DNA of 64,000 bases from Euzebya tangerina. Its GTDB lineage: Bacteria > Actinomycetota > Nitriliruptoria > Euzebyales > Euzebyaceae. The notes under the pieces were generated by a model, which worked only from the letters and a program-made list of their open reading frames with translations, had not been told where the DNA came from and made no database searches. Location of the stretch: contig NZ_PPDK01000001.1 of NCBI RefSeq assembly GCF_003074135.1, positions 1,860,001 to 1,924,000 on the forward strand, in the 5' to 3' direction. A program made the translations under genes and the position numbers. Shown here one piece after another: positions 17,790 to 19,817 of this stretch; positions within the stretch are counted from its first letter, which is position 1; every line of letters starts with the position of its first letter.

Positions 17790-17790
17790 G

Positions 17791-17863
17791 AGCCGGGAGC
17801 GAGAATCGAACTCGCGACATTCGCTTTACAAGAGCGATGCTCTGCCAACTGAGCTATCCCGGC
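17791..17863 (-). tRNA. tRNA-Thr (anticodon TGT)
   Basis: A complete cloverleaf is read on the minus strand: acceptor GCCGGGA/TCCCGGC, D stem GCTC/GAGC, anticodon stem TCGCT/AGCGA around loop CTTGTAA, T arm GCGAG-TTCGATT-CTCGC, discriminator T. The anticodon TGT reads ACA (Thr). CCA is not encoded. It ends 1 bp from the stop of the converging META-domain gene. Confidence 0.96.
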
Positions 17864-17921: not shown

Positions 17922-18614
17922 TCACATGTTCCCGACTCGCTTGTGGTTTCCGACCAGCCTCGGCAGGCCCCTGACGAAGTCCCAGACGGCGACGATGCCG
18001 CCCATCAGCAGCGTGCGGACGGCGCCAAGTGAGAAGGGCGGCACGGCCTTGAGCTCGCGGGATTGGACCGGCTGTCCGTCAGCCACGGCGCCCAGGATGT
18101 CGTCCATCTCCTCGGCGTTGTTCCAGATGCTCCGGAACAGGATCGTGCCATCGGGGTCGATGACGAAGATCGAGTTCGGCATCGTGCCGTAGTGCCGATG
18201 TGCCGCACCGTCCACGTCGTCGACCACGATGGGGCGGCGGTCGTCGTAGCGGCTCTGTGTGCGCTTGGCGGCCTCGACCTTCTCCTCTCGGGTCTGGTGC
18301 TGCGGCTGGCGCTCACCGGGGTGGGCCTCCCGGACGTACATGAGGAGGTGATCCAGCTGCGGATACTTCTCCATCAGCGACATCATGGGCGGCACGCTCT
18401 GCGCGTACATCGGGCAGGTCATGCTGCCGGTCTCGAGGACCAGTGGCTTGTCCTGCAGGTAGTCCGAGAGGCTGACCTGCTGCCCCGTCAGGGTGTGCAG
18501 TGTCACGTCCTCGAAGGTCTCGCCTGCCTGTAGTCCCTGATCGACGGTGAAGTCGTACTCCTCAGGGGTGAAGCGGCGGTACCCGTACTCGTTGATCGCG
18601 GTGGTCGTGTTCAT
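17922..18614 (-). CDS. Iodothyronine deiodinase-like thioredoxin-fold protein (Cys form)
   Basis: The 230-aa product carries the deiodinase-family pattern: VLETGSMTCPMYAQSVPPM, then LLMYVREAHPGE. In vertebrate enzymes the matching motif is GSxTxPPF with selenocysteine, and EAHPSDGW follows. Here the codon is TGC, so the catalytic residue would be Cys in GSMTCP (about residue 67). The later MPNSIFVIDPDGTI segment fits the thioredoxin fold. The C-terminal 40 residues contain a weak hydrophobic stretch. AGGAGAGACACG precedes the ATG. It follows the four-TM gene in a two-gene unit divergent from a TetR regulator. Substrates of bacterial members are unknown; a peroxiredoxin-like redox role is as likely as dehalogenation. 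Confidence 0.75.
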   Translation of the reverse strand: MNTTTAINEYGYRRFTPEEYDFTVDQGLQAGETFEDVTLHTLTGQQVSLSDYLQDKPLVLETGSMTCPMYAQSVPPMMSLMEKYPQLDHLLMYVREAHPGERQPQHQTREEKVEAAKRTQSRYDDRRPIVVDDVDGAAHRHYGTMPNSIFVIDPDGTILFRSIWNNAEEMDDILGAVADGQPVQSRELKAVPPFSLGAVRTLLMGGIVAVWDFVRGLPRLVGNHKRVGNM

Positions 18615-18647
18615 CGTGTCTCTCCTTCTCTTGTGGGGTGCTGCCGT

Positions 18648-19124
18648 TCAGGTCAGCGAGGTCTGGAGTGCGATGACTGCGAGGAGGGTGGTGCTGGTCA
18701 TGAGGAGACCGCGGTGGTGCAGCAGCGCCAGGCGGCCCAGTCCGCTGCGAACCTCGGATGCCTCGCCGTCGGAGGGCACCTCGTCAACGCCTCGGATGTC
18801 GCGGAACAGCCGAGCGACGATGAGTGCCAGCTGGATGAAGAAGAGCGCCGCGAGGCTCACGCTGGCGAGGGTGACGCCGGTCTGCACCAGCAGCAGGATC
18901 ATCAGCAGCGAGGCCGCCCCCATGGTCGTCATCATGGTGGGTGGCAGCAGGTGGATGACCCGCTTGAGGATCGCGTGGACCGTTCGTGCCTCGTCGTCGC
19001 TGACGCGGCCTGACCGCGGCTGCCACATCAGGCGCCAGACCGGCTTCTCGATCAGGGACAGCACGACGAAGATGCCGGTCCCGAGACCCAGCAGTGCTGA
19101 GAGCAGTGGGAGGAGACGGTCCAT
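18648..19124 (-). CDS. Four-helix membrane protein, DUF1772-like
   Basis: The 158-aa protein has four hydrophobic segments (about 5-26, 58-80, 83-103, 138-156) and a His-Arg pair before the last helix (LLHHRGLLMTSTTLL). Size, topology and the late His-Arg recall DUF1772 (anthrone-oxygenase-like) proteins, but similarity is weak by eye. It is the first gene of the unit with the deiodinase-like protein (33-bp gap) and lies opposite the TetR gene over the two operators, so it is very likely controlled by that repressor. Confidence 0.6.
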   Translation of the reverse strand: MDRLLPLLSALLGLGTGIFVVLSLIEKPVWRLMWQPRSGRVSDDEARTVHAILKRVIHLLPPTMMTTMGAASLLMILLLVQTGVTLASVSLAALFFIQLALIVARLFRDIRGVDEVPSDGEASEVRSGLGRLALLHHRGLLMTSTTLLAVIALQTSLT

Positions 19125-19154
19125 GGTGATCGTGGCCCTTCCTGGTCATGTAAG

Positions 19155-19200
19155 ATGTAGTCAATGACAACATACAGGTTAATGTAGGCAATGTCAACAT
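19155..19200. promoter_or_regulatory. Two 19-bp operator repeats between divergent TetR and its target unit
   Basis: Copy 1, ATGTAGTCAATGACAACAT (19155-19173), is an inverted repeat with one mismatched pair around a central A. Copy 2, ATGTAGGCAATGTCAACAT (19182-19200), agrees at 17 of 19 positions and starts 27 bp later. Copy 2 contains the TetR start codon (19191). Both lie in the 66-bp divergent gap, the expected place for autoregulation and control of the four-TM/deiodinase-like genes. Sequence supports the repeats directly; binding by this TetR protein is inference. Confidence 0.7.
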
Positions 19201-19817
19201 CTACTGATCAGGGCTCAGCCGATGGGGCGTATCACCATGGGAACCTGCGGGAGGCGCTGCTCGGGTTGGCGGTCGAGACGCTCAGCGACAGCGGGGTCGA
19301 GCAGCTCAGCCTGCGAGCGATGGCCCGCGAGCTCGACGTCAGTCATGCCGCGCCGCTGCGGCACTTCAAGACCAAGGCCGACCTCCTGAACGCCATCGCT
19401 GTCGAGGGGGTCAAGAGCCTGCTGGCCGCCACCTCCGCGGCTGCGGCCGATCAGCCATCCGGCGTTCGTCGTCTGCGGCACATGGCGTTGGCATACGTCG
19501 ACTGGGCGCGGGAGCACGCCGCGTTCCACCGCGTGATCCGGAACCCTGAGGTGATGCGCCATGCCACCGCACCGCTCCACGAGATGCTCGCGGAGTTCGC
19601 GTCCCTGCAGCGGCGTGAGATCAGTGCGGCCCAGGGTCAGGGCTGGCGAGCAGACGCCGACGCCGACGTGCTCTTCGTGCACCTGGTGTCCTTGACGGCC
19701 GGCACGGCCATCGTCGCCACCGATGCGATGTACCAGGCGCCCATGGGCGCCGCCACGTCACGCGAGGCGCTGACGGCCTCGTTGGACCTGTTCCTCAGCG
19801 ACCGCAGTTCCTCGTGA
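19191..19817 (+). CDS. TetR/AcrR family transcriptional repressor
   Basis: The 208-aa product has an N-terminal helix-turn-helix (about 20-65) with YHHGNLREALLGLAVETL, LSLRAMARELDVSHAAPLRHF and a KTKADLL end typical of TetR proteins. The C-terminal part shows the YVDWAREHAAFHRVI segment of the WHG-type TetR ligand domain. Its own ATG lies within one of two 19-bp operators, so autorepression is likely. The regulated unit is probably the divergent four-TM and deiodinase-like pair. The ligand is unknown. Confidence 0.9.
   Translation: MSTSTDQGSADGAYHHGNLREALLGLAVETLSDSGVEQLSLRAMARELDVSHAAPLRHFKTKADLLNAIAVEGVKSLLAATSAAAADQPSGVRRLRHMALAYVDWAREHAAFHRVIRNPEVMRHATAPLHEMLAEFASLQRREISAAQGQGWRADADADVLFVHLVSLTAGTAIVATDAMYQAPMGAATSREALTASLDLFLSDRSSS

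Follow-up and report, generated by a model that had tools for sequence, protein, structure and literature searches.

What a bacterium might do with a protein of the iodothyronine deiodinase family, and whether the genes beside it belong to the same system, are the questions raised by a compact locus of Euzebya tangerina, located within the 64-kb window analysed here (the window being the whole stretch of DNA, with positions counted from its first letter). An ORF check of the window defines a cassette of three reading frames: on the minus strand, the genes of a deiodinase-like protein in its Cys form (DIO, 17922–18614, 230 aa) and of a small helical-bundle membrane protein (TM4, 18648–19124, 158 aa), placed head to tail with 33 bp between them, and on the plus strand a divergent gene for a TetR-family repressor (tetR, 19191–19817, 208 aa). 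The divergent region carries two 19-bp near-palindromes, O1 (ATGTAGTCAATGACAACAT, 19155–19173) and O2 (ATGTAGGCAATGTCAACAT, 19182–19200). The initial annotation had proposed these three frames with the same positions and strands, the divergent TetR gene and both near-palindromes, as well as the motifs GSMTCPMY and REAHPGE in DIO, and all of them were found again. Directly downstream of the DIO gene there is a tRNA-Thr gene (17790–17863); its 5′ side faces the cassette, so that the geometry is unlike that of the usual island integration.

The deiodinase-like label given to the first protein is supported by three types of evidence, namely the Pfam family PF00837 (63.1 bits, cut-off 27), the best sequence matches in the PDB, which are DIO3 (4tr3, E 3e-10) and DIO2, and the fold comparison of a confidently predicted model. 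The latter, an AlphaFold prediction built on an alignment of 42 relatives (pLDDT 92), ranked DIO2 (9h48) first and DIO3 (4tr3) second over 350,542 PDB chains; ResA proteins came next, peroxiredoxins ranked lower, and DsbE proteins were also among the matches. The C-terminal helices of the model span residues 196–203 and 207–227. DIO matches the AhpC-TSA family as well (PF00578, 30.6 bits, cut-off 26), and its score against the NCBIfam model deiodinase_rel (NF038285, 82.1 bits) lies under the 250-bit threshold.

The alignment with DIO3 places S167, T169, U170, Y197, E200, H202 and H219, among which are the proton-relay and anchor residues of that enzyme (PMC7506546, PMC9141512), on S64, T66, C67, Y93, E96, H98 and H106 of DIO. 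S64, T66, C67, E96 and H98 are kept in 41–42 of the 42 relatives, Y93 in at least 90% of them and H106 in 35. C67, which takes the place of the selenocysteine in deiodinases, is the sole cysteine of the protein, and given the lack of a second one its regeneration would fall to an external thiol. The thyroxine-binding omega loop (AHxxDGW) is absent from DIO, which has AHPGERQ instead and is 9 residues shorter there, W207 and D211 have no counterparts in the DIO3 alignment, and the position of R275 is occupied by W164 (alignment and its ungapped extension). Since DIO departs from the known enzymes in both the loop and R275, it is to be regarded as a homologue and not as an iodothyronine deiodinase. 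The peroxidatic motif PxxxT/SxxC is incomplete in DIO (S64 and C67 are present, L60 stands for the proline), and neither a CxxC nor an evident signal peptide is present.

Among relatives with a match that covers the catalytic codon, this codon encodes Cys or is TGA in every case. The TGA form occurs in 17 relatives and is followed by a stable hairpin in all 17, mostly with a small G-bearing loop, and of eight TGA-form genomes tested, seven gave strong tRNA-Sec matches; taken together, these observations imply that a single catalytic site exists in a Cys and a Sec version, as was first noted in 2005 in the account of the Sargasso Sea selenoproteome (PMC1088965). The genome of E. tangerina also has a strong tRNA-Sec match (65.9 bits; G000:C1:1437790-1437881, minus strand), yet its DIO uses Cys.

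The membrane protein is less easily placed, having no match to any Pfam or NCBIfam model. The label "DUF1772-like", which had been attached to it initially, is unsupported: three homologues were compared with PF08592 (DUF1772/anthrone oxygenase) and none matched it at E-values up to 1, and hhalign put the probability at only 5% when PF08592 members from this and related genomes were used, so that this identity was rejected. The description as a four-TM protein agrees with the predicted structure, a helical bundle (helices 4–34, 43–57, 60–82, 86–114 and 122–157; mean pLDDT 76), for which the PDB fold search returned unspecific helical bundles only and no E-value <0.001. Homologues of TM4 are 41–75% identical, and E26, K27, P28, H50, H58, D114, H136 and H137 are invariant in seven of them; the conservation of E26, H50, H58, D114, H136 and H137 suggests a polar or metal-binding site. 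Cysteines number zero in TM4 of the window and of one Rhodobacteraceae locus (L144), and one in that of an Oscillochloris locus (L023).

The third protein carries the TetR_N helix-turn-helix domain (PF00440, 31 bits, cut-off 24), with YHHGNLR at its N-terminus and VSHAAPLRHF in the region of the recognition helix. With respect to its presumed binding sites, the figures first given for the pair were reproduced: O1 and O2 are identical at 17 of 19 positions, they lie 27 bp apart from start to start, and the TetR start codon (ATG, 19191–19193) falls within O2. The half-sites are palindromic at eight of nine positions in O1 and at seven of nine in O2; chance matches expected in shuffles of the window amount to 0.00, and there is no third match to the 19-mer in the 64 kb. 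The longest exact stretch common to both operators is six bases, the reason why a repeat search with a 7-base seed missed them. A promoter search on the minus strand places TTGACA (−35, 19197–19192) and TATGTT (−10, 19174–19169) upstream of TM4 and DIO, separated by a 17-bp spacer and agreeing with the consensus at 10 of 12 positions (0.2 such sites expected in shuffles). The −35 hexamer lies within O2, and O1 contains five of the six bases of the −10 hexamer. Each operator thus masks one hexamer, from which repression by steric exclusion would follow, and the position of O2 over the TetR start leads one to expect autorepression.

Whether this arrangement is peculiar to one genome can be answered by comparison. 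In a scan of 84,980 species genomes, for which the window DIO was aligned with one relative to serve as the query, 79 loci were kept; TM4 and this type of TetR are encoded as well in only the two closest: that of an Oscillochloris MAG of the Chloroflexota (L023, DIO 60% identical) and that of Roseibacterium (L024, DIO 57% identical), where the trio is rearranged. Searches in the family of Roseibacterium added three Rhodobacteraceae loci with the exact gene order of the window (L121, L122 and L144; DIO 77–78% identical) and a further locus, L123, with TetR, operators, TM4 and an RND pump, and with no DIO in the 10.4 kb read. The three-gene arrangement, whose absence from all relatives would have told against the initial annotation, is therefore present in several genomes. 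TetR orthologues in the trio loci are 45–63% identical, and the TetR of L024 is only 27% identical to that of the window. In the tree, the six DIO proteins of the trio loci form one clade (support 100/100), within which the window protein groups with those of L121, L122 and L144 (100/98). Beyond the three genes the trio loci have no neighbours in common, except for the MFP/RND pair of L024 and L123, whose homologous pump proteins (46% and 59% identical) are encoded in an operon with TM4 (L123, 734–4929; L024, 243–4450). At the level of gene content and order, comparison shows that the genes of TetR, TM4 and DIO form one unit.

The regulatory region is conserved to a similar extent. Every TetR/TM4 divergent gap examined has the palindrome, and 13 sites at six loci define the consensus ATGTWGNCANNGNCWACAT, in which six of nine half-site positions are nearly invariant. 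The members of a pair lie 27 bp apart in the window and in L121, L122 and L144; L123 has a spacing of 24 bp, and L024 is without recognisable operators. In L023 the TetR/TM4 gap holds a single copy, identical to O2 at 19 of 19 positions despite the fact that the proteins of this locus are only 44–60% identical to those of the window, and the DIO gene stands apart behind a promoter of its own (TTGACA-17-TATCAT), which carries two further operator copies. The promoters of L121, L122 and L144 repeat the arrangement of the window (TTGAC[A/G]-17-TATGTA), and comparison of these divergent regions shows that the 27-bp spacing sets one predicted operator on the −35 and the other on the −10; this conserved distance is what each operator needs in order to mask one hexamer. 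When a matrix was trained on the other genomes only, excluding the window, O1 scored 34.4 bits and O2 32.1 bits, the third-best place in the 64 kb reaching 10.7 bits. The initial proposal of TetR control through two operators is hence supported by conserved operators, spacing and promoter placement in independent loci, and the regulatory part of the explanation, a predicted TetR switch, can be considered well supported.

Genome-wide counts come from pattern searches with up to three mismatches, while matrix scoring refers to the 64-kb window. The genome search for the 19-mer called for initially, done with the symmetric consensus, yielded four sites in the 4.78-Mb genome of the organism itself: O1, O2, a third within a predicted coding frame and a fourth that belongs to the promoter of a TetR paralogue. 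A wider regulon in this genome was accordingly rejected. Three of the four sites in the Oscillochloris genome (6.3 Mb, same pattern search) are the cassette's own, and the fourth falls in a predicted reading frame whose product, judged by eye, is a channel-like membrane protein. The paralogous TetR (G000:C3; L021, 1446–1519; L127, 5688–5761) is 31% identical to the cassette TetR, and its divergent promoter contains three palindromes of the TTGACA-N-TGTCAA type, an indication that this type of repressor uses such palindromes. Opposite this gene are encoded a GNAT acetyltransferase and a hydrophobic protein of 142 aa that matches no Pfam family; an alpha/beta hydrolase gene lies behind the paralogue. 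Another TetR gene, found at L003/L022/L091 (42–1324 in the window's order), overlaps by 4 bp the start of a distant Cys deiodinase-like gene (34%) and represents an independent TetR-deiodinase pairing without TM4.

As to the origin of the cassette, genomes of the same genus have no DIO, the trio was found in none of 396 sampled genomes of other Actinomycetota, and no DIO sampled there is this close, which makes lateral acquisition of the window copy, as a compact unit, the most likely course. An empty insertion site in the same genus was not shown, the homologues of the ACT-domain neighbour there being only 39–42% identical. No trio was found on plasmids, where a single distant DIO occurs (in Mycolicibacterium), and a plasmid origin of the cassette was rejected.

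With regard to function, the reading towards which we lean is that of a self-contained, horizontally moved stress unit, providing an inducible one-Cys thiol peroxidase or reductase for small organic toxicants. According to this proposal, TetR dimers on both operators would exclude RNA polymerase from TM4-DIO and would also limit the synthesis of the repressor itself, until a small, hydrophobic molecule, probably some toxic organic compound or the product of its oxidation, releases TetR and allows TM4 and DIO to be made. DIO would then act as a thioredoxin-fold, one-Cys (Sec-equivalent) enzyme, in which C67 attacks the substrate, the conserved deiodinase network of Ser, Thr, Tyr, Glu and His delivers protons and, because there is no resolving cysteine, outside thiols restore the enzyme. 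Most likely, DIO would use thiols to reduce an organic hydroperoxide or some comparable electrophile, much as peroxiredoxins and deiodinases do. Within the membrane, this lipophilic compound would probably be dealt with by TM4, as suggested by the fact that TM4 can also stand in the operon of an RND efflux pump.

The evidence from neighbouring genes that bears on DIO chemistry comes mostly from the wider DIO family and not from the trio itself. On a plasmid of Mycolicibacterium vanbaalenii JOB5 (NZ_CP126902.1, L120, 3639–7804), genes for another TetR, a carboxymuconolactone-decarboxylase (CMD)-type protein, a deiodinase-like protein, a glutaredoxin and an MFS transporter lie in a row. OsmC and CMD proteins are neighbours of DIO in Rhodospirillales-type genomes, and genes of these two types turn up repeatedly close to deiodinase-like genes from other clades (L027, L028, L030, L032, L037, L042; L031, L036, L071, L077). 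These contexts favour a role in detoxifying organic compounds by redox chemistry over metabolism of the thyroid type, and it is on account of them, together with the RND pumps beside TM4, that a thiol peroxidase or reductase is ranked first and dehalogenation second.

Dehalogenation, which is possible but doubtful, would make the enzyme a true reductive dehalogenase: the cassette would be induced by a halogenated aromatic (iodinated or brominated, probably marine), whose halogen DIO removes by way of a halogen bond to C67 and a proton relay through E96 and H106. This idea agrees with DIO2 and DIO3 being the top sequence and fold matches, with the conservation of the deiodinase proton-relay residues, with the activity, though weaker, of Cys deiodinases (PMC9141512) and with the presence of homologues in both records of the iodide-oxidising Iodidimonas in the collection (for the habitat, PMC9415286). 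The loop shortened by 9 residues, the missing W207 and D211 and the change of R275 to W164 speak against it, since with them the known mode of iodothyronine binding is absent; moreover, the Iodidimonas DIO belongs to the wider alphaproteobacterial clade and comes without TM4 or TetR, and beside none of the trios could another halogen gene be recognised. A complete inducible dehalogenation system is judged doubtful too; in it, the halogenated aromatic would be sensed by TetR and dehalogenated by DIO at the expense of thiols, with TM4 either presenting the lipophilic substrate or exporting it. As an observation in its own right, the Iodidimonas-type iodide oxidisers I. muriae and strain Q-1 (L101, L049) both have a deiodinase-like gene of the wider family, a possible link with iodine.

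Another way of looking at the cassette is to put efflux at its centre: TetR and TM4, either alone or together with an RND pump, would be the functional core of a membrane or efflux response to lipophilic compounds, and DIO an accessory of some versions. L123, with its TetR, operators, TM4 and RND/MFP pump, shows that DIO is not needed for every version, and a homologous pump (59%/46%) precedes TM4-DIO in L024. DIO is nonetheless present without a pump in five of the seven loci and keeps in L023 a doubly operated promoter of its own, an indication that control of DIO has been selected for, and this alternative appears rather unlikely.

Much less probable is a thiol-disulfide pair, in which DIO would be a ResA- or DsbE-like oxidoreductase and TM4 its membrane electron partner, of the CcdA, DsbD or VKOR type. 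ResA and DsbE proteins are among the fold matches, most trio loci have DIO and TM4 side by side in the same orientation, and in the model the helix 207–227 of DIO could lie on the membrane; against this, DIO lacks a CxxC and an evident signal peptide, and with no cysteine in the window or L144 protein and one in that of L023, electrons could not pass through thiols of TM4, so that a role of TM4 as a thiol relay was excluded. Finally, that the repeats are due to chance or are a mere promoter footprint, TetR regulating something else, is scarcely credible: the embedded −35 and partial −10 hexamers could account for part of the conservation, but both halves of the 19-mer are conserved beyond them at 13 sites in three phyla, the genomes contain few such sites, and the paralogous TetR gene has three copies of a related palindrome.

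The favoured stress unit can be compared with several known systems. With the iodothyronine deiodinases DIO1–3 (PF00837), DIO has in common the thioredoxin fold, GS-x-T-[C/U]-P, Y-x-x-EAHP and a histidine at the end of the loop; unlike them, it is bacterial and tied to a TetR switch and TM4, it has Cys for Sec, and it lacks the proximal Cys (M65) and the N-terminal membrane anchor. One-Cys peroxiredoxins (AhpE, Bcp, LsfA) resemble it in fold, in the single reactive Cys and in the AhpC-TSA match, whereas DIO has the incomplete PxxxT/SxxC motif and, in its place, the EAHP-H network of deiodinases. Autoregulated efflux and detoxification operons of the TetR/AcrR type have the same divergent TetR gene and palindromic operators over a divergent promoter, and an RND pump, as do related loci of the cassette, but here the genes under control encode a protein of the deiodinase-like type and a membrane protein that belongs to no curated family. 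A further precedent is given by the deiodinase-like proteins of the Sargasso Sea selenoproteome, bacterial members of PF00837 with Sec and Cys forms, for which the passages concerned propose a redox function and, unlike the present cassette, describe no regulator, operator or membrane partner (PMC1088965). The functions of such selenoproteins were still called largely unknown in a 2026 review (PMC13188914).

Bacterial deiodinase-like proteins have been on record since 2005 (PMC1088965), and to them the cassette adds a predicted and testable genetic switch. It joins a deiodinase-like protein to a putative switch of its own, to two precisely placed operators and to a constant membrane partner, conserved across three phyla, and it defines a family of membrane proteins without a match in Pfam or NCBIfam models. 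The operator set would offer a direct route to the inducer, and hence to the class of substrate, for the Cys as well as the Sec forms. If dehalogenation were to prove true, the cassette would bring to light halogen-abstracting chemistry in the deiodinase family outside thyroid hormone metabolism.
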